DNA from: Bacteroidota bacterium
GTDB lineage: Bacteria > Bacteroidota > Rhodothermia > Rhodothermales > Bin80
Assembly (NCBI GenBank): GCA_028873925.1
Contig: JAPPNA010000077.1
Span: forward strand, 1-46,287
Direction: 5' to 3'
Length of the DNA: 46,287 nt
Of the stretch, positions 80 to 34,667 are shown piece by piece. The notes under the pieces were generated by a model that worked only from the letters and a program-made list of their open reading frames with translations, did not search any database and was not told the origin of the DNA. Within the stretch, counting starts at the first letter, position 1. Every line of letters starts with the position of its first letter. A program made the position numbers and the translations under genes.

Positions 80-526
80 ATGAGTATAAGCCACGATCCG
101 TACCCATCCGCCCGTCCCGGGTTCTGGCCGCCGATCTTAGGACTGCTGGCGGCATCGCTTGTGATATCGGGATGTGAGCGGATATCAGCAACATTTCCCT
201 GTTATCCCAATTGGGCCTGGTTGGCTGAAGGCCTCTTTTGCGCCATGCTGGGCTGGCTCGCCGTGAGGTATTGGGCCATAAAGTACTTCAAGAATGTGAA
301 TAAGTGGAATCCACGGGACGATGTGCCTCCACAGCCACCGTGGTCCGCAGTTATCATCACAATTGTAGTGGTGGCCATTGTAATCTTCTTGGTCTGGCTG
401 CTCGCAGCATCTGCTGCAGAGTGCCGAGAGCTACATAATGGACTTCGGCTAGTCTCTTGGATGGTCGGATTAACCCTGGGTGCGCTGTTCAGGTACATGT
501 GGCAGGACCGAAGGAAGTCAGTGTAA
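80..526 (+). CDS. Small four-helix membrane protein, first gene of the tubulin/motor operon
   Basis: A 148-residue integral membrane protein that I do not recognise as a family. Four hydrophobic segments are visible at about residues 18-33, 45-67, 88-110 and 122-141, joined by short polar loops, and the protein ends in the basic tail DRRKSV. It lies 21 bases upstream of the giant tubulin/Hsp70-like gene on the same strand, so it is probably the first visible gene of that operon, although genes before the window edge cannot be excluded. Its position suggests a membrane partner of the motor complex encoded downstream. That role is inferred from location only. The start at 80 has no convincing ribosome binding site. 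Confidence 0.6.
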   Translation: MSISHDPYPSARPGFWPPILGLLAASLVISGCERISATFPCYPNWAWLAEGLFCAMLGWLAVRYWAIKYFKNVNKWNPRDDVPPQPPWSAVIITIVVVAIVIFLVWLLAASAAECRELHNGLRLVSWMVGLTLGALFRYMWQDRRKSV

Positions 527-547
527 CTCATTCAGCATATTTCTCAG

Positions 548-3500
548 ATGGCAAAAAAAGTACTTGTGGCTTGCGGCGGCACCGGCGCGCATGTAACGCT
601 GGCCTATCTGCGCCTGCATATTCTCGGCTACGCATTGGGGTATTTCGCCGCGAAGGACGGTTCCACTCTGCTACCATCGCTGTTCCTGATAGATCAGGAT
701 GATGGCGATGCCGAGGGAGAAGCGACAGCCTGGCAGGCCGCAAAGGCGCTGCTGCGGCGACATCCCGGCGACTATGGGTGGGACAAGAGCAAGAACAGGA
801 TTGGCACCAGCATCACGACCAGATCTGTGACTCCGCTCCCTGTTGGCGCTAAAGGGGACTGGTGTCACAGGCCAAATGACCACCTCAGTACCCGATACGA
901 GGATTCGGAAGTGGCCACAATGTTCTTCAGCCAGGAACAGCGACAGGTGAATTATTCCCTGGGAATGATGGGGGCACCGGCATTGGGTTCACTGCTATTT
1001 GAACTGAAGAAATACGACAAAGATGGTCGCCATGAGCTGCATGACAACGAGTACAGCAATTTGGAAAGGAAATGCGACAAGAACAGCCGCGTCGTGGTTA
1101 CGGGTTCGGGAGTAGGAGGGACGGGTGCCTCTGTTGCCCCCACCTTTGCGCGTAAGTGCAGTCGGGAAGGGGCCGAGGTCATGGCGGTCATGATCCAGAG
1201 ATGGTTTCGCTTTGAAACGGACGTACCGAATCTGGAGGTCAGAGCTAAGGCACGGTATCGCAACAAGCGGATGGAGGAAAACGAAGTGACCGGGCTTGCG
1301 CAGTACGGCCAGGACCTGGTCAAGGGGTTGCCCACCGTCCTTGCCGGGGTAAGGGATGGCAGTACAGAGGTCCGGCATTATACGACGGACAATCAGCAGC
1401 CCAAGTCTGAAACCCACCTTCATGCAGTGGCCGCACTGGCCTGCTTCCTCCAATTTGTGGCTGATGAGCCCTATTCCGAAGGGCTCTATTGTATGTCAGC
1501 GGAGGATCCGTTAAGGCTTACACCGGGCCTGACGATCCCCGGCGGTACGTTGGGCGAACTGGTCACGCGCGCTTGGGCGTTGGAGAGAATTCTGCGTTCC
1601 ATTGTACGGATTCTAAGGGTAACCTACCGAAAGGGACGCTGGGCGTTTGAAGCTCGGCTGTACACGGAAATAAAGGGCACATCCGGGCATCCCAAAGAGG
1701 TGGCTGATAGGCTAAGCAGCTTAGCTGACACGTTTGCTGAACAGATGAACTGGGTGATGGATCTGGTGGGTGGAAAACAGGAACAGATTGAAAGGGAGCT
1801 GCGCAAGGCCGTAGTGTATAAGTATGAGCTGTTTAGCAGCCTGCAGGCTCGTATCGGGGATAAACCATTGCGGGGCCTTTCCCGCAAAAGCACGCCAAAG
1901 CATGCGGCGCAAGCCCTTTTTGAATGGGCGGCTGAATGGGTACGGAACCATCCGCCACCCTTCGTCGGCAGCCAGACTGCTGCCGCCCGTGAGGCGCGCG
2001 GGAATTTTTACTGGCCTCAGGAAGACGGGCAGGGATTATCTTTTTCGTCCACTGAACCTGGGCAGCTGGCGGAGTTACCCGTTGAAAAGGCAAAACCTGC
2101 CTTGGACGCGTTGATAGATGGGCGTGCGAGCCGCGTTCAACAAAATGGTTGGCCGCATCCCTTTGCCGCAGTTAGGCACTTTGAGTACCTGCTGACACAG
2201 AGAGACTTTGTGGCTACTCGTAAGCTGGAATTAATGATTCTCGGCCTGATTGCGGGAGAACTCAAACTGAAGGATGTTGCAGTTGAGGATGATGGCCAGA
2301 CTCCGTCGCTGACGGGGCTCCTGCTGAATCTTAGAAAACAGGGTTGGCCGGGTGTAGCGGAGAAGAAAATTGTTACACTTAGCGGACAAACGGTGGGATT
2401 CAACTCCCCCTTTACCCTTCTATGCCCCTGTCCGGATTCAGGTGAGGCTGTTTGGGAGCAGCTGTGGGAAAAGCTGAATGATTCCGGCGATCCAGAGAAG
2501 TGGAAGAGCGGCAGAGCCGAATGGAGTCTGCGCGCGCGGCGGTTAAGAGGTCTCCTGCAGCGGTGGTTAAATCTGCTCCGAAAGCGCCATCAGTCCGAGT
2601 CGCCATCCTGGGTAAAAGCACTGCGGGACGATTCCATAAGTATGCGCTCGGTAGGGCCTGGATCGCAGCTGCAGGTGTTCTGGGGTGAGGATGTCTTCAC
2701 GGTCTCGTTACCGCAACGACACGATTCCGCCAGCGATGTTGCCGTAGCTCAATACTGGAAGAGGCTCAAGCAGGAAGAAGACAATAAGGTGGAAGAGGAG
2801 GAATTTGCGGATGTGGTGCCGGAGTTCTTTGATGGCCTAAACAGGGAAGGCGTGAAGTATCATGTTGAAAAATACGTTGTCCCCGATGGGACCAGGATGC
2901 GATTCATTTGGCATGACCATCTCAGTCATCTCCAGGAAGAGGGTAAGGTTATCTACTGGCTATATGACCCTGAAAACCGGGACCTATGGCTGGAGTTGCC
3001 GGGACGGAAACATGCACGACTGGGGAATTTCCGGGAGATCCGGCTTGACGACATTCAAATACGGAGCTGCGTGCCGCTGGATCAGCGCCAAATTCCCGGC
3101 GAAGAGGGAAATACAGAGGAGGTTCGGTATCCTGATTTTCCTGTAAAGGCGGAGTACATCGGACTGGTGCAATCCGATTCGGGGAAGAATATCCTGGAGG
3201 ATTATGTGATGGAGGGAAAGACCGTGCCACCTGAAGTTTACCAGAGCGATGCACCGGGCAAGGGCAGGCGGACTTGGAAATTGTATCTGAAGGGGAGGTC
3301 TATGTTTGTACGCGTGAGTGCGGTTGCCAGCCGGGTTAGCACTGGGGCGCACTGGATGATCTGGCCACGATTCAGGTCAGTCAGGCGGGAGAATCCGTGG
3401 AGTGCCTATTACCTGTACCAGCATGCTACCGATAAGTCCCTGCAGGTAAAGGCCATGGTGCACCATGGCGACACGGTTACGATCAGTGAGCGCCCTGATG

Positions 3501-5395
3501 GACACCAAGGAGAAGTACATGCGATCAATTACGATCTCAATAAGCGCACCCACGATGGTGGTGCTCCTGTTGCGTTGGTTGCTTGCCGGAAAGACGAGGA
3601 GGTTGGCATTTACCTGACGCGCCTGGCAACGGTGAGTGATGGTGCCACCGGTTGGAAGATGGCCGTGGATTTCGGTACATCTCACTCAGTGGCTGCCGTA
3701 CACCCCCAGGGCAGGGATAAGCCGGAGGTCGTTGAGCTGCTGCCTGAATTGGGTTTCAGGCGGCGCAGAAGCCCGACCAATCTGACCAGGCATATCAGCC
3801 AGTACTGGGGTGATGATGGGGTGCCCAACGCGGATGTCTGGATGCCGACATACTGGGAACAGACATCAAATGATATATCCGGGCGCGGTTTCCAAGGGCT
3901 CCTGCCGACGGAGTTGTTTTCCAAGGTGCCACTGAATGAGTTTGACAGCGCAGCTGTATTGAAGTGGATTCCGGGGCAGGATTATTCAATCCCGGTGCTG
4001 CGCCTCAGAAGAATAGACATCTCCGAACACATCCTTTCGGGATTCAAGTGGGATGTGGATCAGGAGAAGTTCAGGGCACATACGAAACTCCTCCGAAAGC
4101 TCTACCTGGCCATGATGCTGGAAGTCGTGGTGGCGGAGAAGGTGATGGCTGGAGGCGAGATCCCATCCAAGATTGAAATGACGTTTACGTATCCGCTGCG
4201 GACCTCGGCCAGTGATTACAAGGACTTTGAGGGAATGCTTGCAGGAGAAGTGCTACCCGGAGCCGGAGACTCGCTTGGCACGGAACTGACCATGTTCAAT
4301 GAAGGGCTGCTCAATGAATCCGAAGCGGCCAGGGGCGGCACGAGTCAGTTTGCGGAGATTGTGCTGGTCGGTGACTTGGGGGGCGGAACACTGGATTTGT
4401 TCATTTCGGCCAACGATGGCTCCGACGTAAGATTCAGGACACTGGCCAACAGCGTGAAGATTGGCGGATCCCTGTTTCTGAAACACCTTGCCAATAATCC
4501 GGACGATTTCCTGCCCCCTGACGGAGGCTGGGGTCCTACGCCTGACATCTGTCTGTCCCAGCTGCACGCATGGATGCGGTCACAGGGTGCAGTCAGCCTT
4601 TTTGGGCCGAAGGCGTACGGAAGAATGGACCCAAAGCTGGGACTACGCGGATTTGAAAGGCCGGAGGAGGGAAATAATGTCCGCCAGGCTATCGATTGGT
4701 ATTTCGGGCTGATCGTGGAATACATGGCGCGCAACCTGGTGGGGTTTGTCATCAACGAATGGGATAAGAAGCGTATGAATAAGAACGGATCATTCCGCGA
4801 GGACTTTCCAGCCCTCAGCGTGAAGGTTCAGCTTCGGGGCAATGGGTGGAAACTGTGGTATGGCACCGAGATTTACAGGGAGATTGAAAGACTGATCAAG
4901 AACTGGCTCTGCTGGTCTGCCGAGAATGCGTTGTGGGACTATCGCGATGCGGGCGTACCCGAGAAGGAATCCTGGGGGGTGCCTAAGGGCAGAAACATGC
5001 GGCCCAAGCACGATCCAACGGTCAGGGCGGTGGGAAGAAGTTTACCGCATCATGAGGCGCACGAAAACGGCTTTACGCTTCCGCTGTCTGATCTGGACCT
5101 CTTGGTTGCAAAAAGAAGGGAGGGATTGTCGTGGTTGACCGAATTGCCCATGGAGTACAGTGATGCTGAGATGGAATTCATCCAGGTGCGTCCGAGCATG
5201 CTCGTGGGTTTTCCTTGGGGCAGAAGATTCAGGGTGGACCTGCTGGATGACCAGACGACCAAGAGTATAAATGAAAAAATCAGGGGCGAAATCACCATCT
5301 CCCAAGGGGAAATTGACGCGCCGATCGCGGCATTCATTTGGGAGGATTGCTTCAATTCCAAAATGCAATCTCGGGACTGGGGGGAACAGGATTGA
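548..5395 (+). CDS. Giant fusion protein: tubulin/FtsZ-like N-terminus plus actin/Hsp70-like C-terminus
   Basis: A 1615-residue protein. The N-terminus starts with a glycine-rich Rossmann-type loop (VLVACGGTGAHVT, residues 5-17). A tubulin/FtsZ-signature-like GVGGTGAS lies at residues 189-195, which fits the bacterial 'tubulin-like' family (Tubulin_2 type). The C-terminal third opens with an actin/Hsp70 phosphate-1 motif, AVDFGTSHS (DFGTS at 1041-1045), and has a phosphate-2 motif DLGGGTLDL at 1276-1284, so an intact ASKHA-type ATPase fold is likely. The roughly 800 residues between carry no motif I recognise. Two cytoskeletal nucleotide-binding folds on one chain are unusual. The protein lacks obvious membrane helices, so it should be cytoplasmic. 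It is followed by a small gene, a surface protein and MotA/MotB-like subunits, suggesting it senses or drives an envelope motor. Both fold calls come from motifs only and need structure prediction. Confidence 0.75.
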   Translation: MAKKVLVACGGTGAHVTLAYLRLHILGYALGYFAAKDGSTLLPSLFLIDQDDGDAEGEATAWQAAKALLRRHPGDYGWDKSKNRIGTSITTRSVTPLPVGAKGDWCHRPNDHLSTRYEDSEVATMFFSQEQRQVNYSLGMMGAPALGSLLFELKKYDKDGRHELHDNEYSNLERKCDKNSRVVVTGSGVGGTGASVAPTFARKCSREGAEVMAVMIQRWFRFETDVPNLEVRAKARYRNKRMEENEVTGLAQYGQDLVKGLPTVLAGVRDGSTEVRHYTTDNQQPKSETHLHAVAALACFLQFVADEPYSEGLYCMSAEDPLRLTPGLTIPGGTLGELVTRAWALERILRSIVRILRVTYRKGRWAFEARLYTEIKGTSGHPKEVADRLSSLADTFAEQMNWVMDLVGGKQEQIERELRKAVVYKYELFSSLQARIGDKPLRGLSRKSTPKHAAQALFEWAAEWVRNHPPPFVGSQTAAAREARGNFYWPQEDGQGLSFSSTEPGQLAELPVEKAKPALDALIDGRASRVQQNGWPHPFAAVRHFEYLLTQRDFVATRKLELMILGLIAGELKLKDVAVEDDGQTPSLTGLLLNLRKQGWPGVAEKKIVTLSGQTVGFNSPFTLLCPCPDSGEAVWEQLWEKLNDSGDPEKWKSGRAEWSLRARRLRGLLQRWLNLLRKRHQSESPSWVKALRDDSISMRSVGPGSQLQVFWGEDVFTVSLPQRHDSASDVAVAQYWKRLKQEEDNKVEEEEFADVVPEFFDGLNREGVKYHVEKYVVPDGTRMRFIWHDHLSHLQEEGKVIYWLYDPENRDLWLELPGRKHARLGNFREIRLDDIQIRSCVPLDQRQIPGEEGNTEEVRYPDFPVKAEYIGLVQSDSGKNILEDYVMEGKTVPPEVYQSDAPGKGRRTWKLYLKGRSMFVRVSAVASRVSTGAHWMIWPRFRSVRRENPWSAYYLYQHATDKSLQVKAMVHHGDTVTISERPDGHQGEVHAINYDLNKRTHDGGAPVALVACRKDEEVGIYLTRLATVSDGATGWKMAVDFGTSHSVAAVHPQGRDKPEVVELLPELGFRRRRSPTNLTRHISQYWGDDGVPNADVWMPTYWEQTSNDISGRGFQGLLPTELFSKVPLNEFDSAAVLKWIPGQDYSIPVLRLRRIDISEHILSGFKWDVDQEKFRAHTKLLRKLYLAMMLEVVVAEKVMAGGEIPSKIEMTFTYPLRTSASDYKDFEGMLAGEVLPGAGDSLGTELTMFNEGLLNESEAARGGTSQFAEIVLVGDLGGGTLDLFISANDGSDVRFRTLANSVKIGGSLFLKHLANNPDDFLPPDGGWGPTPDICLSQLHAWMRSQGAVSLFGPKAYGRMDPKLGLRGFERPEEGNNVRQAIDWYFGLIVEYMARNLVGFVINEWDKKRMNKNGSFREDFPALSVKVQLRGNGWKLWYGTEIYREIERLIKNWLCWSAENALWDYRDAGVPEKESWGVPKGRNMRPKHDPTVRAVGRSLPHHEAHENGFTLPLSDLDLLVAKRREGLSWLTELPMEYSDAEMEFIQVRPSMLVGFPWGRRFRVDLLDDQTTKSINEKIRGEITISQGEIDAPIAAFIWEDCFNSKMQSRDWGEQD

Positions 5396-5396
5396 T

Positions 5397-5789
5397 TTGC
5401 TCAAGGGCCTTTTCCCTCTGAAATACGCGGACCATCAGACTGGCAGGATGGCGGACCAGTGCAACGCTCTCAATTCCGGGATTCACACCGCGTTTTCAGC
5501 ACAACTGGCCCCGTGGCCTCCGGTGCATGTCAAGAGGAGCGTCTCCGTGCAGGATCGCGTCGGAATGGTTCAAACGGGAGTGCTCCCTGTGAAACGGCTG
5601 GGAAGGAGCCTCTCAAAGATGGCTGATGCGGGCATCTGGGCGCTATGGCAGCTGAAGTATTTTGCGAAGCGCCTGGAGGGCAGGAGTCTTGTTCGGATGG
5701 ATATGAGGAAGATCATCCTGTCCGAAATGCTGGCATTGGCCAAAGAGATACAAGAGAGCAATCTGGCAGACCAAGGTGAAAAATCATGA
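5397..5789 (+). CDS. Small uncharacterised protein of the tubulin/motor operon
   Basis: A protein of about 130 residues that I do not recognise. The frame is open from before the upstream stop and ends in an ATGA overlap with the next gene, which argues that it is translated. The start is uncertain: TTG at 5397, directly after the stop of the giant gene and behind a GGGGGGAACAGG stretch, is my choice. ATG at 5448, or ATG at 5271 inside the upstream gene, are alternatives. The C-terminal half is rich in Lys, Arg and Leu and looks helical (KRLGRSLSKMADAGIW, then ILSEMLALAKEIQE). No signal peptide or membrane helix is seen, so it is probably a cytoplasmic adaptor between the ATPase/GTPase protein and the membrane parts. 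Confidence 0.5.
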   Translation: MLKGLFPLKYADHQTGRMADQCNALNSGIHTAFSAQLAPWPPVHVKRSVSVQDRVGMVQTGVLPVKRLGRSLSKMADAGIWALWQLKYFAKRLEGRSLVRMDMRKIILSEMLALAKEIQESNLADQGEKS

Positions 5790-7270
5790 ATACTTCACGC
5801 CGCTCAATTGGGGCTAAAAAGGACCATCTGCGAAGATTTCCCCGGCCGCTGGCAATACTTGGCGGGCTGATTGTGTTGGCCGGTGTCGTACTGGTAGTGT
5901 TAAATGGGTGCGGTTCTTCTAATGGTCCTGACGACTCGCCAGGCCCACCGATAACGGAGTCGGAGGAAGACTCAACGATAATGTCGCTGGAGGGAGACAC
6001 GTTGATGTTGCCGGTGGAGGATGGCGAATTCAAGCGGTTTGAGTCTGATACCAAGTATTTGGGCACCATGGCAATTCGGAGATCGGGCTCGGTCAGTGCG
6101 GACCGGCAGCCGGAAAGTGACCGAGAGCAGTCCGCCACTGAAATCCAATTATACTTGGATCGGTCCCGTCCGATAGGAGGATTCGTATCGCCCCGAGGTC
6201 CAGACGAATCCCGCTTTCCGGCTATGATTGACGTGGCGGGACGGGAAATGCTGGCTGTATATGGTGCTGGAGGCATTCCTGTTCGCTGGTACGGATTTGC
6301 TGAACAGGTGCGTCTGCTGCCACAAAGGCCACGCATAACTCGGTCCTTTTTTAACGGTAGTCAGTCTGAATTGACCTTAGCCTTAGCAAGGGCTCAACGA
6401 GATCTTGAGAGTGGCGCGACAGATGCGGCGGTATTCCTGACCGATCTCATGGTGACTCGCGATGGCTTTACGAGCCCCATTCATTTACCCAACTTCCTGG
6501 CTCCCTGGATCGAGTCAGCTGGGGTAGACGATGGGCATTTTGATATCGCAATGGTGGGTGCGAAACTGGAGTACTGGGGTGTGCAGTCTCAAACCTGTTC
6601 GGCTTCGGGTGAATTGGGGTGCTGGTTCCATGAACGGAGCCTTAGTTGGGTTCCGCTGGAATCTGTGGTTCAGAGCCCCATTTATTTCTTGATCTTATCC
6701 AGGCGAACCGGCGGCGACAGGGCGCGCGAATTAGCTTCAAGGATCGGGAATGCTCTTGAATGGCATATGGAATCGGATCGTGTCCATTCTGAGCTTCTGA
6801 CTGAGCTGATGGCGGTCAGGTCCGACTCACTGGTCATTGAGGCGCAAAATCGTCCGACGCTCCAACTTGACACAAGGGCTACCAATCTCACGCTTTGGTG
6901 CGTTGACCGGAGTTCGGCCAACCTGCTGGCTACATCCAAATTGCCATTCGCGGGAGAGCCATCGATCGTGAGTGATACAGAATTGCTCAGCGGAAGCTGG
7001 GACCGCGGCAAGCTTTCCGTAACCATTAATTGCCGTGAAGTGCGTGATGTTGACAGACCCGTTACGACAGGTGTGCGGATTGAGGGTCTATTGGATGAGG
7101 AAGAGTGGGACCGTTCGCAGAATAAGGGCTGGAAGTCATGGCAAACGCCAGACTATTCCTCAGATGGTACGGTGCAGTTGCTGGAGGCGCTAAACGGGCT
7201 GAGAGTGGCTTCGAATCAGGTCACCTTGGACCTCACGCGATTGTTCACATTTCCAGACAGCAAGGACTGA
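5786..7270 (+). CDS. Membrane-anchored or lipoprotein-type surface protein with a vWA-like segment
   Basis: A 494-residue protein with a basic N-terminus, a hydrophobic stretch at about residues 21-40 and VLNGC with Cys42, an atypical lipobox. It is either a lipoprotein or a protein held by one helix with an exported body. The centre has a pattern reminiscent of von Willebrand A-type folds: a strand near VRWYGF, a Thr-containing helix start after SQSE, and the strand VFLTDLMVT. A later strand, PIYFLILSRR, is also typical. The metal-site signature DxSxS is missing, so this is a weak fold guess. The start overlaps the previous stop (ATGA) and has AAGGTGA about 8 bases upstream. Its place just before the MotA-like gene suggests an extracytoplasmic partner of the motor. 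Confidence 0.6.
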   Translation: MNTSRRSIGAKKDHLRRFPRPLAILGGLIVLAGVVLVVLNGCGSSNGPDDSPGPPITESEEDSTIMSLEGDTLMLPVEDGEFKRFESDTKYLGTMAIRRSGSVSADRQPESDREQSATEIQLYLDRSRPIGGFVSPRGPDESRFPAMIDVAGREMLAVYGAGGIPVRWYGFAEQVRLLPQRPRITRSFFNGSQSELTLALARAQRDLESGATDAAVFLTDLMVTRDGFTSPIHLPNFLAPWIESAGVDDGHFDIAMVGAKLEYWGVQSQTCSASGELGCWFHERSLSWVPLESVVQSPIYFLILSRRTGGDRARELASRIGNALEWHMESDRVHSELLTELMAVRSDSLVIEAQNRPTLQLDTRATNLTLWCVDRSSANLLATSKLPFAGEPSIVSDTELLSGSWDRGKLSVTINCREVRDVDRPVTTGVRIEGLLDEEEWDRSQNKGWKSWQTPDYSSDGTVQLLEALNGLRVASNQVTLDLTRLFTFPDSKD

Positions 7271-7273
7271 TTG

Positions 7274-8827
7274 ATGGAAAACGGACTATTGGTGGGAGTC
7301 GCCATTATCTTTGTCATCATAGTTTTATGCCAGGTAAGGTTCTGGAGGCGGGCTCATTCAGCGAGGGATCGAATCCGCGCAGAAGCGCAGTCATGGATCC
7401 ATGCTCCTCCCACAGACGAGCCAAATGAGCCAGACCAGTCAACTGGGGCGGCCGATCCCGAATTGTTTAGCAGGATAAAGTCGGACATCCGGACACGCGT
7501 ACTCGCGGGCGCACAGCCCGATTGGCAGACGTATGCGCAGTGGCTGGAGAGATTCGTCAGGGCGCAGCTCGAAATCATCCGTCAGCAGGCCAATTCCGCT
7601 TTGGTGCTGGGCATTCTGGGGACCATTGGGATTGCTGTTTTTGAGATTTTGATGGTTACGGTGGATAGCGATGTGCAGTGGAATAACCAGCTTAGGGCAG
7701 GAATATTGTTGACCCTGGGTTCCAGTGCGCTTGGAATGCTGAATAATCTGACTATCTCACAGTTCAGCCTCCGTTTGGGAGAACAGGAGTCAGACGACTT
7801 CTTGGACGAAGCCGAGGACATTCTTCGCTCCTTCGCCAACACTATGCTGGGGCCGAGCCTTCCTGATGATGCCGTATTGGCAGAGCCGATCAATCGGTTG
7901 AGCGCTCAGGTTCAGGTCTTAGGCACCGGTCTGGAGGGTCAGACCAAGGCGATTGCGGATTTGTTGATTGATCAGCGGTCCCTGGTCGAACAATCCCAGG
8001 AATCTTACGGGAAACACACGGACAAAATAGCCGGTGCTCTGCAGCAGCATTCAGTACAGCTATCCAGCTTATTTGAGGAACTGAAGGAACTGCCGGGCAT
8101 GATCCGAGGAGCCATTGAAACCGTACCGTCATTGTTGGCCGAGGAGGTCAGAAAGGGGCACAGGCATACGGAGGAAATAAGGGATGTTCTCGTTGCCGGA
8201 AGCGATGGCATTCACCAGGAAATACGGGCCGGACACGAACAGTTGGCGCAGTCGGCAAAGGCAAACCAGGACGCGTTGGTGGGCCATCTGCAAAATCATG
8301 TGGATACACTTGACCGGGCAGTCCGGGAGGCCCGCCTTGAAGTGGGGGAGATAGGGGACCTGTTGGAGAGTCACACCGGCAGGTTGGCCGAAGTACTCAA
8401 AGTTGGCTTGGACGAAATGCGCCGCAACTTTGTCAGCAATTCTGATGCTATCGTCAAGGATATTTTCAGCGAGCACGAACAGCGTAGCCGGGAGCTGGTG
8501 TGGAATCCGCTTGAAAAACTGGGGAAAGAGCTCGGCATTGTTTCCAGCGAGGTGCCAAGCGCTGCTGATCGATTTCGTGAGAGTGTTGCGGGTGCGGCGG
8601 AAAAACTGGCTGAGCTGCCGGATGATTTTGGGGCGATTCATGACAGGCTGCACGAGATTGAACACAAGTTGACCCGCCATCAGGATGAATTCGTAGAGAC
8701 TCTGGCATCCGTTGAGCAATCCACGGACCGGATCAGCCAGAATGCCGCCCGATTGCACAGGCAGATCGGCGATTCGGTCAAAGGCCTGATCACGCTAATC
8801 CGGCATCTGGTGAATGAAATCAATTGA
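7274..8827 (+). CDS. MotA/TolQ/ExbB-like channel subunit with long cytoplasmic helical tail (ZorA-like layout)
   Basis: A 517-residue protein with three predicted membrane helices (about 3-20, 107-130 and 141-163). A cytoplasmic segment separates the first two, as in TolQ/ExbB. The second helix has LVLGILGTIG and the third LLTLGSSALGML, matching the small-residue-rich packing helices of MotA/TolQ/ExbB channels. Residues from about 165 to 517 form a long, heptad-like, charged helical region. A long tail of this sort is the hallmark of ZorA in the Zorya defence system and is absent from TolQ and ExbB. The start is ATG 7274, with AAGGA at 7262-7266, 3 bases after the upstream stop. It should pair with the MotB-like proteins downstream as an ion-driven rotary complex. 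Family membership is inferred from topology and local motifs. Confidence 0.7.
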   Translation: MENGLLVGVAIIFVIIVLCQVRFWRRAHSARDRIRAEAQSWIHAPPTDEPNEPDQSTGAADPELFSRIKSDIRTRVLAGAQPDWQTYAQWLERFVRAQLEIIRQQANSALVLGILGTIGIAVFEILMVTVDSDVQWNNQLRAGILLTLGSSALGMLNNLTISQFSLRLGEQESDDFLDEAEDILRSFANTMLGPSLPDDAVLAEPINRLSAQVQVLGTGLEGQTKAIADLLIDQRSLVEQSQESYGKHTDKIAGALQQHSVQLSSLFEELKELPGMIRGAIETVPSLLAEEVRKGHRHTEEIRDVLVAGSDGIHQEIRAGHEQLAQSAKANQDALVGHLQNHVDTLDRAVREARLEVGEIGDLLESHTGRLAEVLKVGLDEMRRNFVSNSDAIVKDIFSEHEQRSRELVWNPLEKLGKELGIVSSEVPSAADRFRESVAGAAEKLAELPDDFGAIHDRLHEIEHKLTRHQDEFVETLASVEQSTDRISQNAARLHRQIGDSVKGLITLIRHLVNEIN

Positions 8828-9065
8828 TCCAATTGAAGGTGCGGGACCTCCGTCCGCGAGAATGGAATTACGGTGTCGGCCGCCGGCGCGTTATTCTACC
8901 GTTAAGATGAGCTTTACCCGCAAATTGCTGCTCGGGGGCGCAGTGGATCCGGTTTTGGGGATGGAAGGGGGATGGGTTGGAGCCCGACGGGCGGGCAATT
9001 TCGCCCTAACAGTAATTCGCATGCGGCAGGCCGAAATCAAATAGCGACCAAGACTCCGGCAAGTC
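8828..9065. other. Spacer between MotA-like gene and first MotB-like gene
   Basis: This 238-base gap is unusual in an otherwise tight operon. It is open in one frame (8814-9044, 76 residues), starting inside the MotA-like gene, but the product is rich in Arg, Pro and Gly and resembles nothing I know. The second MotB-like gene overlaps the stop of its MotA-like remnant instead, so this spacer may be an insertion into an ancestral 4-base junction. No terminator or promoter is obvious. Confidence 0.35.
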
Positions 9066-9638
9066 ATGCACCGTACCAATACGAGAACCACTGCGTGGCC
9101 CGCAATCGCGGACCTGATGACCATTATAGTTGTCCTGGGTTTAACGGTGGGGCTGGTAGCGTTTGGCGGTCGCACACCCCCGCCGGATTGCGAGCAATAC
9201 GAGGATTCTCTAACCACTGCTAATAACACCATTGATTCTCTTCGAGAGAGGATCAGGCACCTCAATCCACGCCCCAAGTGCTGGGAGGATGGCCCAAATG
9301 GCGTACGGTGGTTGTTCACGGCAGAGATCGACAGCAGTGATCGGTATAGACTGATAAGCCACCCTGAATCCGAGCACGAGCTTGAGCGCGATGACAGGAT
9401 GTGCTCCTTTGTTGAGCAAGTTAACGAAGACTTGATGTACACCGAGGAGCAGGTTAAGGCCCTCTTGAGGCCGATCAATGAGGAAGGCAGGAGCAGACTC
9501 CAGCAGGTTTCTGCGAAGGGATGCGTGTTTTACGCTCTAGCAGAGAGAATTGAGTCTCCTGACGGGATCCCTTATGACGCTGGCCTATATGAGGCACAGA
9601 TCAAAGTGCTCCAACAGTTTTTGTGGATCGGAATCTGA
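9066..9638 (+). CDS. MotB/ZorB-like single-pass motor subunit, copy 1
   Basis: A 190-residue protein with a short basic N-terminus and one membrane helix at about residues 16-34. The helix begins WPAIADLMTIIVVLG. Asp16, just inside the helix, matches the place of the proton-accepting Asp of MotB/ZorB (MotB has YADFMT). After the helix comes a short predicted coiled coil (DSLTTANNTIDSLRERI) and then an unknown periplasmic domain with three Cys. No OmpA-type peptidoglycan-binding motif is visible, so wall anchoring, if any, must be by other means. It shares the first 34 residues almost exactly with the second copy, while the distal domain has diverged. It presumably forms the plug and ion path with the MotA-like protein. 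Confidence 0.65.
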   Translation: MHRTNTRTTAWPAIADLMTIIVVLGLTVGLVAFGGRTPPPDCEQYEDSLTTANNTIDSLRERIRHLNPRPKCWEDGPNGVRWLFTAEIDSSDRYRLISHPESEHELERDDRMCSFVEQVNEDLMYTEEQVKALLRPINEEGRSRLQQVSAKGCVFYALAERIESPDGIPYDAGLYEAQIKVLQQFLWIGI

Positions 9639-9648
9639 AGGGTGGATT

Positions 9649-9765
9649 ATGGCAGGCCACGATCAGGAATTACCGGATAAGTTGCACAGACAGATCGGCG
9701 ATTCAGTCAACGGCCTCATCACGTTATTCCGGCATCTGGTGAACCCAACTCATGAAGCGTACTAG
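9649..9765 (+). pseudogene. Duplicated 3' remnant of the MotA-like gene
   Basis: A 38-codon open frame (ATG 9649 to TAG 9765) whose second half, KLHRQIGDSVNGLITLFRHL, repeats the C-terminus of the MotA-like protein (LHRQIGDSVKGLITLIRHLVN). At the DNA level 9680-9743 aligns with 8752-8815 with only a few mismatches. It overlaps the start of the second MotB-like gene (ATGA at 9752). It is best read as what remains of a tandem duplication of the MotA-tail/MotB-like junction. It may still be translated and serve to couple translation of the following gene. Confidence 0.7.
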
Positions 9766-10381
9766 CACGAGGATTACGGCATGGCCTGCCATCGCGGACC
9801 TGATGACCATCATTGTGGTCCTGGGGGCCACGGTAGGGCTGGTGGCGTTTGGCGGCCGTGGCGGTGTACTGGAGAAAGAACTTAGGCAATGCCGTGACTC
9901 AACCAAGCAGCTCCTAGTTACACTTGAGCATCTCCGTGACTCGACCAAGCAGCTCCACGAGATTTTGGCAACAAAGGAATCCACGATAGATTCGTTGGAA
10001 GTGTTGGTGAGCGGTCCAGGACCACCCAGGTGCTGGCACGACGAAGATGGTCAAGTGCAGCGACTCTTCAGAATTGAGATCTATCGGCAGCATTTTCGGA
10101 TCAAAATCATCGCTCGTCGGAGGCAGCTTGCGGAGGATAAAGAGATTCAAGAATTGGTTAGTGAAGTGCAGCCGGAACGGGATTACTCACAGAATGAATT
10201 GGTAGGCATTTTGAGGCGAGTTTATGATATAGGCGTAAGTAGGACTGAGGGGAATCAGAATGGGTGCCGGTTTTGGGGCAGATTAGTGTTAAAGGAGGAA
10301 ATAAGTGCAAGTCAGCTTATCAAGCTCACAAATCTTGTTAACCGTTTCATCCTGACCAATACGGCAGAGCCCATGTACTGA
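9752..10381 (+). CDS. MotB/ZorB-like single-pass motor subunit, copy 2
   Basis: A 209-residue paralogue of the preceding MotB-like protein. The N-terminus and helix are nearly identical (WPAIADLMTIIVVLGATVGL, with Asp16 kept). The stalk is longer and contains a perfect-looking 14-residue tandem repeat (RDSTKQL twice, DNA period 42 bases at 9892 and 9934). The distal domain keeps the same layout as copy 1: a Pro-Arg-Cys-Trp motif (PRCWHDEDG, compare PKCWEDGPN), then RLFRIEIY and a Cys near GCRFW. No OmpA motif is seen. The gene starts in a 4-base-type overlap with the MotA-tail remnant. Two unequal MotB-like subunits could build a heteromeric plug, or one may be a diverging spare. It is the last gene of the operon. 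Confidence 0.65.
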   Translation: MKRTSTRITAWPAIADLMTIIVVLGATVGLVAFGGRGGVLEKELRQCRDSTKQLLVTLEHLRDSTKQLHEILATKESTIDSLEVLVSGPGPPRCWHDEDGQVQRLFRIEIYRQHFRIKIIARRRQLAEDKEIQELVSEVQPERDYSQNELVGILRRVYDIGVSRTEGNQNGCRFWGRLVLKEEISASQLIKLTNLVNRFILTNTAEPMY

Positions 10382-14745: not shown

Positions 14746-16311
14746 TCAGAGGTTATGGGTCGGATACAAGGGCAGCCGCTCAATGCGATGGAAAGTAATT
14801 CCTGAATGCGGGCTGGGTTTGAAAATGCGTGCTTCGTAGACGATCTCGCGAGAGTCTACGTCAACTTCCACGGTCCGGCCGTGCGGCTCGCCACCGCTCC
14901 AGATCGCGCCGGGCATGAACGCAATCGTACCCTGCTCCTCGTGGTAGTCCACATCAGACACGATGGGAGCCAGGGTTTCGTCGCCCCGCTCCTTGCCGTA
15001 CTGCCAGACCTGCTGCACGGTCATGTTCTGCTCATCAATCCGGTAAATGACTGCGCGGCTGTACCGCTCCCGGAAGGTATAATTGCGCCGATCTCCATTG
15101 TCAAACAGCAGCAGATGGCCATCCGGCACGAGCTTGGGCGCGTGCTGATACCAGTTCCATTCAAAATCGGGATGGTTAGTAGTACCCTCCAGCACAGCCC
15201 GATCGGTGATGGGCTGCCCCTGCGCATCCAACGGCTGCAGCAGTTTGGTCGCAAGCACGGACCGATCCCCGGCTGTCCTCCACCCCCGGTGTGGGGCCAG
15301 CAGCCAGATCACTTCATTGCTGCGTGTCAGCTTGACGACCCCCTGATGTCGCCCCGAAACAATGATTGCATCTGATGACTCATCATAGGCCAGCCCGTTG
15401 GCGTGGAACCAGTCGCCAAAATTGGCGCTCCAGGTGCGGCGCCTGCTGTCCAGCGATTGGCGCAGGTCCCATTCTGTGACCAGCGCACCCGTATTGCGGT
15501 CGATTTCCACAATGTGGTCCTCAATGGTCTGCAGGCCGTGCTTGTTGACGGTGGCCAGAAGATTCCCGTTAGGAAGCTCAAGTACGTTATGGTGGTAGCC
15601 GTAACCGACCAAGGGCCAGAGATTGACGACATTGCCCATCATGTCCATTTCGACGAGATTGCCGCTTGAACCATCCCCGAAATACAGATTGCCGTTCCGC
15701 AGCCGTTCAACGCCCGCATCATAGAAGAGATAGGCCAGGACCGGGTGCGGGTCCGTATTGATAAACCATCGAATGTCCCCATCACTGTCAAAGATAAACG
15801 GAATCTGAGGCAGATCCTGATTTTGATGTCCGAAGTAGCTGACCAGATTCATGCCGGGTTTGCGCCGACCGGTGTTGACCTCTACGGAAACCTGCGGCAG
15901 TTCGGTGATCAGCGGGCTGGTGGTCACGGTTCTTGAGGTCTCGCCCAGCCTTGTTCCGTCGCCATCGTAGAGCCGGATGTAAATCAAGTTCTCCACACCG
16001 CCATAAAGCCCCAATACCGGGACCAGGTGCTGCGTGTCCGTGTCAGGATGGCGGTACTGGACATCACCCGCCTGACTGATTCGGCCCCTGATGAGGATTT
16101 CCACCTGTACCGGTTCGCGGGTCGTAATGAACAGGCTGGCGGTCAGCGGTGCGTATCCGGACGGATTGAGGGAAATCCGAGTGGTATCAATGATGTCCTC
16201 AACATTAAAGGACTCACTGCCGGTGTCCGTCGAATCACACCCGGCTGCGAACCACGCAATGGGAACAGCCACCAGAATGGCCCATCGGATGCGGGTCCTA
16301 CACCAGCTCAT
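14746..16311 (-). CDS. Aryl-sulfate sulfotransferase-family lipoprotein
   Basis: A lipoprotein of about 521 residues in the arylsulfotransferase (ASST) family, which moves sulfate between phenolic compounds without PAPS. I chose ATG 16311 because it places AWFAAGC as a lipobox (Cys about residue 24) directly after a hydrophobic signal; the frame is open to 16386. An N-terminal beta domain (residues about 40-130) precedes a propeller with GYGYHHNVLELPNGNLL, DWFHANGLAYDESSDAIIVS, SRHQGVVKL-like and NHPDFEWNWYQHAPKL stretches, where conserved His residues lie. It is the first gene of a four-gene minus-strand unit, with a 2-base gap to the next gene. A periplasmic or outer-membrane location is expected. 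Confidence 0.82.
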   Translation of the reverse strand: MSWCRTRIRWAILVAVPIAWFAAGCDSTDTGSESFNVEDIIDTTRISLNPSGYAPLTASLFITTREPVQVEILIRGRISQAGDVQYRHPDTDTQHLVPVLGLYGGVENLIYIRLYDGDGTRLGETSRTVTTSPLITELPQVSVEVNTGRRKPGMNLVSYFGHQNQDLPQIPFIFDSDGDIRWFINTDPHPVLAYLFYDAGVERLRNGNLYFGDGSSGNLVEMDMMGNVVNLWPLVGYGYHHNVLELPNGNLLATVNKHGLQTIEDHIVEIDRNTGALVTEWDLRQSLDSRRRTWSANFGDWFHANGLAYDESSDAIIVSGRHQGVVKLTRSNEVIWLLAPHRGWRTAGDRSVLATKLLQPLDAQGQPITDRAVLEGTTNHPDFEWNWYQHAPKLVPDGHLLLFDNGDRRNYTFRERYSRAVIYRIDEQNMTVQQVWQYGKERGDETLAPIVSDVDYHEEQGTIAFMPGAIWSGGEPHGRTVEVDVDSREIVYEARIFKPSPHSGITFHRIERLPLYPTHNL

Positions 16312-28451: not shown

Positions 28452-28524
28452 GGTACCTGACATTCGGGCAGAAGTTTTGTAAATTTATCCAAAACCAATC
28501 GCTCCGCTGGCTTTGCTGCTGCTG

Positions 28525-30081
28525 ATGCACATACCGCCCTATCCTGTCATCGACCTGTTTGCGGGATGCGGCGGCTTGGGTGAAGGCTTTTCTGCCGTGA
28601 CTTGCGGTAGAAATGACAATACCCCCCCCCCATTTTGTGTCGGACTCTCAATAGATAAGGATCGCTGGGCCTGCAGGACCCTGCGATTGCGGCATTTTTT
28701 CAGGGAATTCCCGGCTGGTCAGGCTCCAGAGGCTTATTACGAGTATCTGCGGGGTCGCATTGATGAGGTCCAACTGTACGGCGGCTTTCCCGATGAAGCT
28801 GAAAGGTCTCAGCGAACAGTCCAGTGCATCACGCTTAGCCCTGAGCATCACGGCACGGTACGAAGGCTGATTGCGGATCAGTTGGGGACCGCCCGGAAAT
28901 GGGTCCTGATCGGCGGGCCGCCCTGCCAGGCCTATTCGGTGGCCGGACGTGCGCGCATGAAAAACATGCCGGGTTTTGCCTCGGATGTGCGCCATCTGCT
29001 CTATCGGGAGTACCTGCAGATTCTGGCCGACCACCGGCCGCCTGTATTTGTAATGGAGAACGTCAAGGGGCTCACTTCGGCAACGCTTGAGGGGCAATCC
29101 ATGATTGCCCGGATCATGAGTGATCTCATGGATCCGCAGGCGGCACTGAAGAGGCAGGCCGCCAGGTCGGCACCGGGGTACCGGTTACATGCGCTTGCAT
29201 CGGGTGAATCGCAGCTGTTCAACGAGATCCCCGAGGCCCATGATTTTGTCGTCCGGGCTGAACAGCACGGTGTTCCCCAGACCCGGCATCGCGTCTTCAT
29301 TCTCGGCATTCGCCGTGATCTCCAGGTCCGCCCGGGAACGCTGGCGCGCCGGAATCCGCCAACAGTGGGGGATGTCATTGGCGATCTTCCGCGAATCCGC
29401 AGCGGCTTAACGGGCAGTTCCGATACGCCGGCTTCCTGGCGGACAGCAATTGGTGCTCTGGCGGATCAGGACTTGTCGGATGCGGTCGGATCGCGGGAAA
29501 TAATGCAGCAGCTGGAAGCAGGTGCTGCCGGACGACGCTCGCTCAGCGAACGAAACGCGGATGCCTATGAGCATCGTGAGGTCAGCCACGATGCCTTGCG
29601 GTTCATCATGTCCGATTCGCGGCTCAAACACATCGATGGCCATGAGTCCCGCGCCCACATGGCCAGTGATCTGCGCCGATACGCCTATGTGGCCGGATTC
29701 GCAAAGGTACACGGAAAAAGTCCGAAACTCCGCGATCTTCCCAAGGCCCTGCTGCCGGCGCACGGCAACATACCTAAGGACGGAATTCCAAGTCAGTTTG
29801 AAGACCGCTTCAAGGTCCAGATTGCAGACAGACCCGCTTCCACTGTGACCGCCCACATTGCAAAGGACGGGCATTACTATATCCATTACGATCCTGTCCA
29901 GTGTCGCAGTCTCACTGTTCGGGAGGCAGCGCGGCTGCAGACGTTTCCAGACAACTTCAAGTTTGAAGGTCCGCGGACTGAACAGTACCGCCAGATTGGC
30001 AATGCCGTGCCTCCGTATCTGGCCAGCCAGATCGGCGAGATCGTCGGGGAGGTGTTGGATGCCATAGGCCGAAAAGGGTGA
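28525..30081 (+). CDS. C5 DNA cytosine methyltransferase (Dcm family), first gene of defence operon
   Basis: A 518-residue enzyme that methylates cytosine C5 with AdoMet. The motifs come in order: I DLFAGCGGLGEGF, IV GGPPCQAYS with the catalytic Cys, VI ENVKGL, VIII QTRHRVFILG, IX LTVREAARLQTFPD and X QIGNAVPPYLA. The long stretch between VIII and IX holds the target-recognition region. Ten consecutive C at 28622-28631 encode TPPP (about residues 33-36) just after motif I. A one-base change there would stop translation early. Start ATG 28525; TTG 28513 is open. The stop overlaps the next start (TGATG), so the downstream genes are translationally coupled. It probably protects host DNA from the rest of the system, or marks it for recognition. 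Confidence 0.92.
   Translation: MHIPPYPVIDLFAGCGGLGEGFSAVTCGRNDNTPPPFCVGLSIDKDRWACRTLRLRHFFREFPAGQAPEAYYEYLRGRIDEVQLYGGFPDEAERSQRTVQCITLSPEHHGTVRRLIADQLGTARKWVLIGGPPCQAYSVAGRARMKNMPGFASDVRHLLYREYLQILADHRPPVFVMENVKGLTSATLEGQSMIARIMSDLMDPQAALKRQAARSAPGYRLHALASGESQLFNEIPEAHDFVVRAEQHGVPQTRHRVFILGIRRDLQVRPGTLARRNPPTVGDVIGDLPRIRSGLTGSSDTPASWRTAIGALADQDLSDAVGSREIMQQLEAGAAGRRSLSERNADAYEHREVSHDALRFIMSDSRLKHIDGHESRAHMASDLRRYAYVAGFAKVHGKSPKLRDLPKALLPAHGNIPKDGIPSQFEDRFKVQIADRPASTVTAHIAKDGHYYIHYDPVQCRSLTVREAARLQTFPDNFKFEGPRTEQYRQIGNAVPPYLASQIGEIVGEVLDAIGRKG
28622..28631. repeat. Homopolymer tract C10 in the methyltransferase gene
   Basis: Ten C in a row on the coding strand, about 100 bases after the methyltransferase start codon. 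The frame is open at this length. Position and length are typical of contingency tracts that switch methyltransferase genes on and off. Confidence 0.92.
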
Positions 30082-30506
30082 TGGCGGACAGGATTACCAA
30101 AGAGCGGCGCAGCTGGAATATGTCGCGCATCAGGGGCCGCAACACCCGGTGCGAAATCAGACTGCGCTCAGGACTCCATCGGGCGGGATATCGGTTCGGG
30201 CTCCATAGTGCCAGGCTGCCCGGCAGACCGGATATCGTGCTGACCAGATTCCGTATGGCCGTTTTTGTACACGGGTGTTTCTGGCATCGGCATGAAGGCT
30301 GCCGCAAGGCGGCCCTGCCCAAAACCAATGTGGCCTTCTGGCAGGAGAAATTCCGTGGTACCGTTGAACGGGACCGGCGCAACAGGGAGCAGTTGTCCGC
30401 CATGGGCTGGCGGACCATTGTGGTCTGGGAATGCGAAATCAATCGCGATCTGTCGCAGGTAGTGGAACGCATCCGAGCGGAGTTGGAGGAGGGACAGGAT
30501 GCGTGA
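30081..30506 (+). CDS. vsr: Very short patch repair-type endonuclease (Vsr)
   Basis: A 141-residue Vsr-family nuclease. In Dcm systems Vsr nicks 5' of T in T:G mismatches that arise by deamination of 5-methylcytosine. Family motifs are MSRIRGRNTRCEIRLRS, GRPDIVL (catalytic Asp in PD), VFVHGCFWHRHEGC (His and Cys positions) and PKTNVAFWQEKF followed by RDRRNREQL. The usual VDG is VHG here, which is worth noting but leaves the GCFWH core. The start ATG 30081 overlaps the methyltransferase stop. In this operon it may repair damage caused by the methyltransferase or act as a nuclease of the defence complex. Confidence 0.92.
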   Translation: MADRITKERRSWNMSRIRGRNTRCEIRLRSGLHRAGYRFGLHSARLPGRPDIVLTRFRMAVFVHGCFWHRHEGCRKAALPKTNVAFWQEKFRGTVERDRRNREQLSAMGWRTIVVWECEINRDLSQVVERIRAELEEGQDA

Positions 30507-31971
30507 ACTGAATCTGCCACCCAGTGCGGCATCGCTGTCAGCTTCGCTCCGGGACATAGGGTACACGCTGGAAACGGCGATCGCTGATCTGGTGGACAAC
30601 AGCATTGCCGCCGGCGCACACACGATCGATGTCTACTGTGATCCAGGCTCAGTAAGCCCCGCACTGGCGGTCATTGACGATGGCTGCGGGATGTCTGGAA
30701 ATGAGATCGTCGATGCCATGAGGCTGGGCGGAAGCTCACGCGCTCAGGAGAGATCAGTTCATGATCTGGGTAAGTTCGGGCTGGGTTTGAAGACCGCCTC
30801 GTTCTCTCAGTGCAGGTGCCTGACCGTAGTCAGCCGCAAAGACGGGCGACTTAGCGGGATTGAGTGGGATCTTGATGTTGTCAAATCAAGCGACCGATGG
30901 ATTGTGCGGGAGCTTGACAGCAGTCAGCTCCGAGAGCTTCCCTATGCCGAAACACTTACGGCAACAGGCACACTTATTCTCTGGCGGAAGCTGGACCGAC
31001 TGTTTGGGGGCCTGCATGGGCGCAGCCGGCAGGAGGTGGCTGCGGAAAAACTTGTGGCGCTGGAAAAGCATCTGGGGCTGGTGTTTCACCGGTTTCTGGC
31101 CGGTACGGTCAGTTGGCATAAACCCTTCGGTATCAGTGTTAACGGACATCCTGTAGCGGACTTTGACCCGTTCTGCCGCGAGCATCCCGCGACGATCAAG
31201 GAGCCGGAAGAATCGGTGCAGGTGGGGCGGTCCAGAGTCACCCTGGCACCCTTTATCCTACCGCATCACAGTAAGCTCAAGGCGCATGTGCTGAAGCGGT
31301 ACAAGGATCGCAGCGACTTCGTGGCCAATCAGGGGGTCTACGTCTATCGCAACTGCCGACTGATCGCTTGGGGAGGCTGGTTTAGAATCATGGCTAGGAG
31401 CGAAGTTACAAAGCTGGCCCGGATTCAGGTGGATTTTTCAAGTGCATTGGATGGCAGTTGGACGATTGATATCAAGAAGTCCAGCGCCATTCCGCCCAAA
31501 GCGGTGCGTGATCAGCTTCGGCTGATCATTGATCGCATTGCGGATCGCAGCACGGCTGTGATCAAGGATAAGGGCCGGCGGGCCCTGCCCACTGTCAAAT
31601 ACACGGTCTGGGAGCGATTGCCCGGCAAAGCGGGGATCCGATACGCCATCAGCGCCACACATCCGCTGGTAAAAGCGCTAGAAGATGCGCTTGATGAGGG
31701 TGGCTTATCAAAGCTCCGCCTCCTTCTTGAAACGGCGGCGGCCGCACTTCCGGTGGAAACGATCTACGCAGACCACGCGGTTCAGCCGCGAAGAACGGGA
31801 GTTGCGCCCGAGCCGAATGGAGCTCCTCTGGAAAAGGTCAAGCAGTTGCGCGCCTGTCTGCCGGAGCAGAAACGATCAGACCAGAAGGCCGTGCTCGCGC
31901 TGGCAAAACAAACGCGTCTGTTTGACAGGGATTGGCCCGCCGTAAAGGAATTTGTCAGGGGGCTCCAATGA
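30499..31971 (+). CDS. MORC/MutL-type GHKL ATPase of defence operon
   Basis: A 490-residue GHKL ATPase. The N box is AIADLVDNSI (Asn34; the catalytic base position is Asp30 where many relatives have Glu). The G1 box is IDDGCGMSG and the G2 box is GKFGLGLKTASFSQ. A second S5-like domain follows, with the sensor region near SSAIPPKAVRD, and a C-terminal helical part. These are typical of the prokaryotic MORC-like proteins known from restriction-modification neighbourhoods, which clamp on DNA when they bind ATP. The gene overlaps vsr by 8 bases and its stop overlaps the next start (ATGA), so it is tightly coupled. It probably acts as a DNA clamp that recruits the nuclease. Confidence 0.88.
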   Translation: MRELNLPPSAASLSASLRDIGYTLETAIADLVDNSIAAGAHTIDVYCDPGSVSPALAVIDDGCGMSGNEIVDAMRLGGSSRAQERSVHDLGKFGLGLKTASFSQCRCLTVVSRKDGRLSGIEWDLDVVKSSDRWIVRELDSSQLRELPYAETLTATGTLILWRKLDRLFGGLHGRSRQEVAAEKLVALEKHLGLVFHRFLAGTVSWHKPFGISVNGHPVADFDPFCREHPATIKEPEESVQVGRSRVTLAPFILPHHSKLKAHVLKRYKDRSDFVANQGVYVYRNCRLIAWGGWFRIMARSEVTKLARIQVDFSSALDGSWTIDIKKSSAIPPKAVRDQLRLIIDRIADRSTAVIKDKGRRALPTVKYTVWERLPGKAGIRYAISATHPLVKALEDALDEGGLSKLRLLLETAAAALPVETIYADHAVQPRRTGVAPEPNGAPLEKVKQLRACLPEQKRSDQKAVLALAKQTRLFDRDWPAVKEFVRGLQ

Positions 31972-34658: not shown

Positions 34659-34667
34659 ACCCGGAAA

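Follow-up and report, generated by a model that had tools for sequence, protein, structure and literature searches.

A tubulin-type/Hsp70-type fusion protein encoded with a putative Zorya-like motor pair in a transferable bacterial operon

Introduction

Zorya employs a flagellar-type motor against phage, and how motion of this motor is converted into a response is not settled; Asp24 of its ZorB subunit is the ion-path residue and is essential for defence (PMC11890865). FtsZl1-type tubulins are encoded in operons with von Willebrand factor A (vWA) and OmpA genes, which were predicted to form a multi-component envelope system (Makarova and Koonin 2010, PMC2875224), and we found no demonstrated function for these tubulins in the literature searched. 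Tubulin, Hsp70 and vWA components have further been predicted in GTPase-centred conflict systems (Kaur et al. 2020, PMC7159879). Here we analyse an operon at positions 80-10381 of a 46,287-nt stretch of DNA (contig JAPPNA010000077.1 of the Bacteroidota assembly GCA_028873925.1), referred to throughout as the window. It forms the left end of the 46-kb contig G000:C35 of an uncultured bacterium, whose same-family relatives have been deposited as Rhodothermales or Bacteroidetes bins. Seemingly the same kind of motor as in Zorya is encoded here with a different cytoplasmic partner, one that plausibly assembles or unfolds rather than cutting nucleic acid, and FtsZl1-type tubulins, predicted in 2010, would gain a compact transferable operon. 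No published description of this gene set was found in a search, not exhaustive, of the open-access literature.

Results

Conservation of the operon

The operon is a single + strand gene run encoding a small membrane protein (g1), a giant protein, a small protein (g3), a lipoprotein, a MotA-like protein and two MotB-like proteins, and the coordinates, strands, gene order and motifs given in a preliminary description of one compact operon all proved correct. When 39 genomes, 16 of them in the window's family, were searched by tblastn with the giant, it was found in eight (the window's own counted), all within the family. Genomes scanned initially with just the window's own sequence gave no matches; when the family alignment served as query against 84,980 species genomes, loci were added in Acidobacteriota (Vicinamibacteria, Thermoanaerobaculia, Holophagales and others) and Gemmatimonadota, as was a fragment from a gammaproteobacterial bin. 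The order g1–giant–g3–vWA lipoprotein–MotA-like–MotB-like recurs in independent loci of Rhodothermota/Bacteroidota, Acidobacteriota and Gemmatimonadota, and both motor genes lie 3' of the lipoprotein gene in 11 of the 11 loci whose contig is long enough (with an intervening transposase gene at L020), the other loci being cut by contig ends. The window's giant is ~32-37% identical to every relative, and its MotA-like protein only ~20-25%. Gene order shared among independent loci at this distance is more than chance. The preliminary description had named a conserved neighbourhood as its own check, and one was found, across phyla; it had held that the lack of such a neighbourhood, or wrong folds, would count against it, and neither was observed, the MotA/TolQ fold being weakly indicated.

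The giant protein

The giant gene (548..5395, +) encodes a cytoplasmic protein of 1615 residues with no transmembrane (TM) segment, and at the domain level this is established as a fusion of a tubulin-type domain with an Hsp70/actin-type (ASKHA) ATPase, the tubulin half by sequence profiles and the ASKHA half by sequence profiles and a structural model. Its tubulin/FtsZ-type GTPase-like domain (residues ~1-440; 548..1867) has the two GTP-binding loops characteristic of the superfamily, namely, a T1-like nucleotide loop ACGGTGAH (residues 8-15; 569..592), invariant in the alignment of relatives, and a T4-like phosphate loop GSGVGGTGAS (residues 186-195; 1103..1132), aligned to the T4 region of FtsZ; the T7 loop had no confident position in the alignment. 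PF00091 matched seven of the seven family relatives weakly, below its cut-off (best E 0.0014), and PF13809 (Tubulin_2) matched two of the seven at E 0.077, leaving the window giant unmatched. Against the Protein Data Bank (PDB), the giant profile returned sub-threshold FtsZ matches at the T4 region only, plus a chance Rb match, and the single sequence of the tubulin half returned nothing relevant. Profile-profile alignment (hhalign) with proteins encoded separately at the split loci described below gave probability 98.0 and E 1.8e-13 for the giant N-terminus against Tubulin_2 proteins, and probability 90.8 and E 1.2e-6 for the C-terminus against ASKHA proteins, while reversed sequences stayed at background and there was no cross match between tubulin and ASKHA halves.

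Residues 416-1615 were modelled with AlphaFold2 (11 homologues; mean predicted local distance difference test, pLDDT, 64), which places a mixed or beta-rich middle region (residues ~440-1030) between the tubulin domain and the ASKHA ATPase (residues ~1034-1500; 3647..5047). This model matched DnaK in Foldseek (E 1.3e-7, prob 1.00) and VIA-align (Z 9.5, root-mean-square deviation 5.7, 293 residues), and its structural matches were Hsp70s, MreB, MamK and FtsA. The giant has the duplicated RNase-H-fold ATPase of ASKHA proteins with both of their phosphate motifs: phosphate-1 DFGTS (residues 1041-1045; 3668..3682) is invariant, and in phosphate-2 DLGGGTLD (residues 1276-1283; 4373..4396), located by the alignment of relatives, D1276, L1277, G1278, G1279, T1281 and D1283 are invariant, also in an 11-row alignment. 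Relatives keep all four motifs of the giant, with nearly every position invariant. The tubulin-like and Hsp70-like assignments of the preliminary description are borne out by the hhalign, Foldseek and VIA-align matches.

In four genomes, one of them the distant Bacteroidota genome G051, the two halves are split: a 491-548-residue Tubulin_2-related protein is followed by a separate long protein of 1166-1301 residues where complete. The split tubulin at L045 matched Tubulin_2 over the cut-off (3.2e-9), and DFGTS and DIGGGT motifs are present in the long protein there. In distant Bacteroidota the neighbours of the separate tubulin and ASKHA genes encode a small membrane protein and a lipoprotein with a vWA domain. 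Fusion of the two NTPases in the window, as against separate but neighbouring genes elsewhere, is evidence that both work together.

Three further observations concern the giant and its relatives. The split tubulin and ASKHA operon at L059 (989-11523) continues on the same strand with three genes for TerD and one for an OmpA-domain protein, making it a Ter-linked relative. The giant gene is broken into two or three overlapping open reading frames at differing positions at L037 (440-5147), L039 (8447-13152) and L043 (2-4957), which may be assembly errors or decaying copies. The split versions, like g1 and g3, had gone without comment in the preliminary description.

The motor-like pair

The MotA/ZorA-like gene (7274..8827, +) encodes 517 residues comprising three TM segments and a ~350-residue helical cytoplasmic tail. 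G113, G116, T117, S151 and G154 are invariant in relatives, T117 and S151 lying in TM2 and TM3, and this topology together with the invariant polar residues fits, if weakly, the core of the MotA/TolQ/ExbB proteins. The MotA-like gene always has a MotB-like gene directly after it, whose product carries a WPAxADLMT motif, with the putative ion-path Asp16 invariant in 12 of 12 proteins, and a short periplasmic domain with two invariant Cys. Against 177,635 PDB sequences, the top match of the MotA-like profile was ZorA of S. kujiense (8vvi), with TM2-TM3 in register and an E value of 0.17 that is insignificant alone. Run independently, the MotB-like profile matched ZorB (8vvn and 8qyd, E 0.41 and 0.57), with Asp16 aligned to ZorB Asp24, and also gathered unrelated coiled coils. 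Since two different adjacent genes both point to the cognate Zorya subunits, the pair appears to resemble ZorA and ZorB, weakly but specifically. The preliminary description had likewise placed the motor closest to ZorAB, and its MotA/TolQ-type label for the 517-residue protein finds weak support.

Other comparisons bear less directly on this pair. PF01618 (MotA_ExbB) matched one of nine relatives (E 0.018), and the window MotA-like gene was unmatched even at E 10. An hhalign comparison of the MotA-like N-terminus with ExbB relatives gave no match, an uninformative result because the ExbB set contained some wrong open reading frames. PADLOC ZorA models matched only the coiled-coil tail, far below cut-off, and we discounted these matches as coiled-coil similarity. 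OmpA (PF00691) was not among the 25 families listed of the 42 that matched the 12 MotB-like relatives at E up to 10, and was not found for the window MotB-like copies, which may carry a diverged form of the domain.

In the window the MotB-like gene is present twice (+ strand; copy 1, 9066..9638, Asp16 at 9111-9113; copy 2, 9752..10381, Asp16 at 9797-9799), through a tandem duplication (8753-8814, 9060-9172, 9682-9743, 9746-9858) that took in this gene and some 62 nt from the end of the MotA-like gene; the copied remnant of that 3' end (9682..9743, +) is 90% identical to 8753-8814. The copies are strongly diverged 3' of the TM segment. We considered and rejected a conserved heterodimer, the duplication being local to the window: every relative has a single MotB-like gene. 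The preliminary claim of two MotB-type subunits with the Asp in ADLMT stands for the motif, with the second subunit being a local duplicate.

The lipoprotein and the small genes

The lipoprotein gene (5786..7270, +) encodes 494 residues with the lipobox VVLNGC, and the protein likely carries a periplasmic vWA domain (residues ~115-325), a call made from the predicted fold and from residues resembling a metal-ion-dependent adhesion site (MIDAS): D125, S127 and P129 of a DxSxP motif (6158..6172, +) are invariant, as is D220. The AlphaFold2 model (mean pLDDT 70, core 80-90) matched, over residues 115-325 in Foldseek and VIA-align, mainly vWA domains (Rpn10, CMG2 and integrin I domains), the best at Z 7.2, below the level safe on its own. 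An hhalign comparison with the vWA proteins of the split relatives, whose MIDAS is clearer (ETSASMGG, ENSASMDG), was weak (prob 3%). Through this likely vWA domain the operon is linked to the FtsZl1/vWA operons that Makarova and Koonin described. What had been labelled simply a surface-anchored protein is indeed anchored, as a lipoprotein; that label had overlooked the likely vWA domain.

Direct Pfam, NCBIfam and PADLOC scans left nearly all of the operon proteins unnamed. The first gene, g1 (80..526, +), encodes a 148-residue membrane protein and starts 79 bp from the contig start in the window; in relatives it opens the gene run, and its product has 3-4 hydrophobic segments and a lipobox-like Cys near the N-terminus. 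At the split loci (L045, L059, L060 and L061), the small membrane protein gene directly before the tubulin gene is its positional equivalent. g3 (about 5451..5789, +; ~112 residues, start uncertain) overlaps the start of the lipoprotein gene and matched no Pfam family. At this position the Acidobacteriota/Gemmatimonadota branch encodes two TM segments and a conserved C-terminal domain (DGHFNxxG...HFYVLPSFAKSP); as L037, L039, L040 and L042 showed, g3 comes in two unrelated-looking types, one with the two TM segments and this unnamed domain.

Mobility and genomic surroundings

Presence of the operon is patchy, at 8 of the 16 family genomes, and within genus g6 it occurs in G010 and G012-G015 and is absent from G005, G007-G009 and G011. 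In G015 (L021) the operon is flanked by two 208-nt direct repeats (5407-5614 and 16100-16307), each a copy of the start of a transporter gene, and in G011 (L099) the sequences from either side are contiguous with a single repeat copy, an empty site; the whole operon is thus a discrete insertion in G015. The tree mixes phyla, with the Rhodothermales copy L037 inside an Acidobacteriota group at full support, where a binning error of short contigs is possible. In none of 10 loci did the GC content of the operon exceed that of its flanks, and at some the difference was marginal.

Genes associated with defence flank several loci: L025/L026 have AIPR, a C5 methylase with MTaX1-HNH, DprA and HTH-M78, L023 has an N6/N4 methylase together with an RNA ligase, and L042 has HSDR_N. 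AIPR is single-copy in 5 of the 16 family genomes, all five among the eight with the operon (hypergeometric 56/4368 = 0.013, kinship ignored). Together, neighbouring defence genes, patchiness and mobility favour a defence role.

The window holds two further defence-related regions. At 28513-37440 (+), 18 kb downstream of the operon, PADLOC finds a near-complete Mza-type defence system consisting of a C5 methylase, MzaB, MzaC, MzaD and an AIPR-like MzaE, and at 41619-42881 (-) there is a strong match (1e-150) to the candidate defence protein PDC-S01.

Discussion

Proposed function and alternatives

We see about an even chance that the operon is a surveillance and response cassette, anchored in the envelope, spread by horizontal transfer and most likely directed against phage. 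Best supported in this reading is a transferable system that spans the envelope and joins a sensor, a motor and a cytoskeletal NTPase; we consider a role in conflict with phage or other invaders slightly more probable than not. In such a cassette an envelope event (a ligand, or damage during phage entry) would be detected by the vWA lipoprotein and by the periplasmic, Cys-containing domain of the MotB-like protein, and this would open or engage a ZorAB-like, ion-driven motor of MotA5:MotB2 type with its ion path at Asp16. The long helical tail of the motor would carry motion into the cytoplasm and act on the giant, which would spend GTP and ATP on assembling at the intruder or the membrane, or on holding or remodelling either of them. 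We infer ion flow, tail-to-giant signalling and assembly of the giant by analogy with Zorya and with tubulin and Hsp70 biology, and infer also the assembly of the motor, the direction of the signal and the defence role itself. It is conceivable, though rather unlikely, that the operon represents a novel anti-phage or envelope-conflict class in which an ion motor directly controls a GTPase–Hsp70 fusion, with a vWA sensor and no nuclease effector, so that a mechanical signal across the membrane would become filament or chaperone action. The operon offers sites for point mutation in MotB Asp16, the tubulin T4 loop, ASKHA Asp1041 and Asp1276, and MIDAS Asp125.

Several findings weigh against a mobile anti-phage cassette. 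The operon has no recognised nuclease or toxin effector, neither the ZorA match (E 0.17) nor the ZorB match (E 0.41) is significant by itself, and the operon was not found in collections of viral contigs, plasmids and phages. Defence neighbours are absent from most Acidobacteriota loci and from G015; L025 and L026 are near-identical and therefore count as one event; and fragmented metagenome bins limit the taxonomy of the loci.

The alternative that survives best, which we judge unlikely, is a membrane remodelling, vesicle or envelope-stress machine with no phage role, in which the giant would be a scaffold coupled by the motor to the envelope. A membrane-remodelling role was proposed for FtsZl1 operons (PMC2875224), and vWA and OmpA genes, which are FtsZl1 features in that account, occur with TerD genes in the operons of the split homologues; the vWA lipoprotein and the motor are envelope parts, and several loci lie amid ordinary genes. 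However, the within-genus patchiness, empty-site insertion, cross-phylum spread and nearby defence genes typify accessory conflict systems and not housekeeping machinery.

Improbable, in our view, is an uptake, export or inter-bacterial machine in which an ExbB/TolQ-like ion motor would have the vWA lipoprotein as its outer partner and the giant as its cytoplasmic chaperone. ExbB/TolQ/MotA-type subunits power transport in known systems, and the Hsp70-type domain suggests substrate handling, but the operon contains no conserved gene for an outer-membrane receptor, secretin or secreted substrate, and the long helical tail is a feature of ZorA, not of ExbB. Least probable is that there is no motor and that the MotA-like and MotB-like proteins are unrelated membrane and coiled-coil proteins anchoring the giant at the membrane, as the nearly empty Pfam result, the failed alignment to an impure ExbB set and the confinement of PADLOC ZorA matches to the coiled coil would allow, because ZorA and ZorB are what two independent profiles select from all PDB sequences, with the ion-path Asp in register, because Thr117, Ser151 and Asp16 are invariant, and because the MotB-like gene always follows the MotA-like gene.

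Comparison with known systems

The GAP1-N2-type systems (PMC7159879) resemble the operon in their use of tubulin, Hsp70 and membrane vWA proteins and in a predicted near-membrane conflict role. They differ in that tubulin and Hsp70 are separate, non-overlapping themes there, in Firmicutes and Actinobacteria, and in being built around TRAFAC GTPase and GAP1 genes, with no ZorAB-like pair described. No operon protein matched a P-loop GTPase, and the conserved gene set has no further member that could be the TRAFAC DO-GTPase or GAP1.

With Zorya (PMC11890865) the operon shares the character of an accessory cassette and appears to share a MotA-like subunit with a long cytoplasmic helical tail and a single-TM subunit with a putative ion-path Asp. 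It differs in having the giant and the vWA lipoprotein in place of ZorC, ZorD and ZorE, and no OmpA peptidoglycan-binding domain was detected on its MotB-like proteins. PADLOC ZorC/D/E models matched no operon protein and none is in the conserved gene set, in agreement with the preliminary description; we rejected plain membership of Zorya on this ground.

The pointer to Makarova and Koonin in that description was apt: like the FtsZl1 (Tubulin_2, PF13809)/vWA/OmpA operons (PMC2875224), the operon encodes a tubulin-type protein with a GGTG loop, extra membrane proteins and, at 5786-7270, a protein of likely vWA fold with MIDAS-like residues. The split relatives (L045, L059-L061) look like FtsZl1 operons in which an ASKHA gene adjoins the tubulin gene. 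In contrast to FtsZl1, which has a coiled coil and a helical C-terminal domain, the tubulin of the window is fused to an Hsp70-type ATPase and does not match PF13809, a ZorAB-like pair replaces the OmpA proteins, and there is no protein kinase or P-loop GTPase. With a Zorya-like motor that lacks ZorC/D/E, and an FtsZl1/vWA-like core that reaches neither the Tubulin_2 cut-off nor a coiled coil, the operon merges two known kinds of system, and is a new combination of a putative Zorya-type motor with an FtsZl1/vWA-like core.

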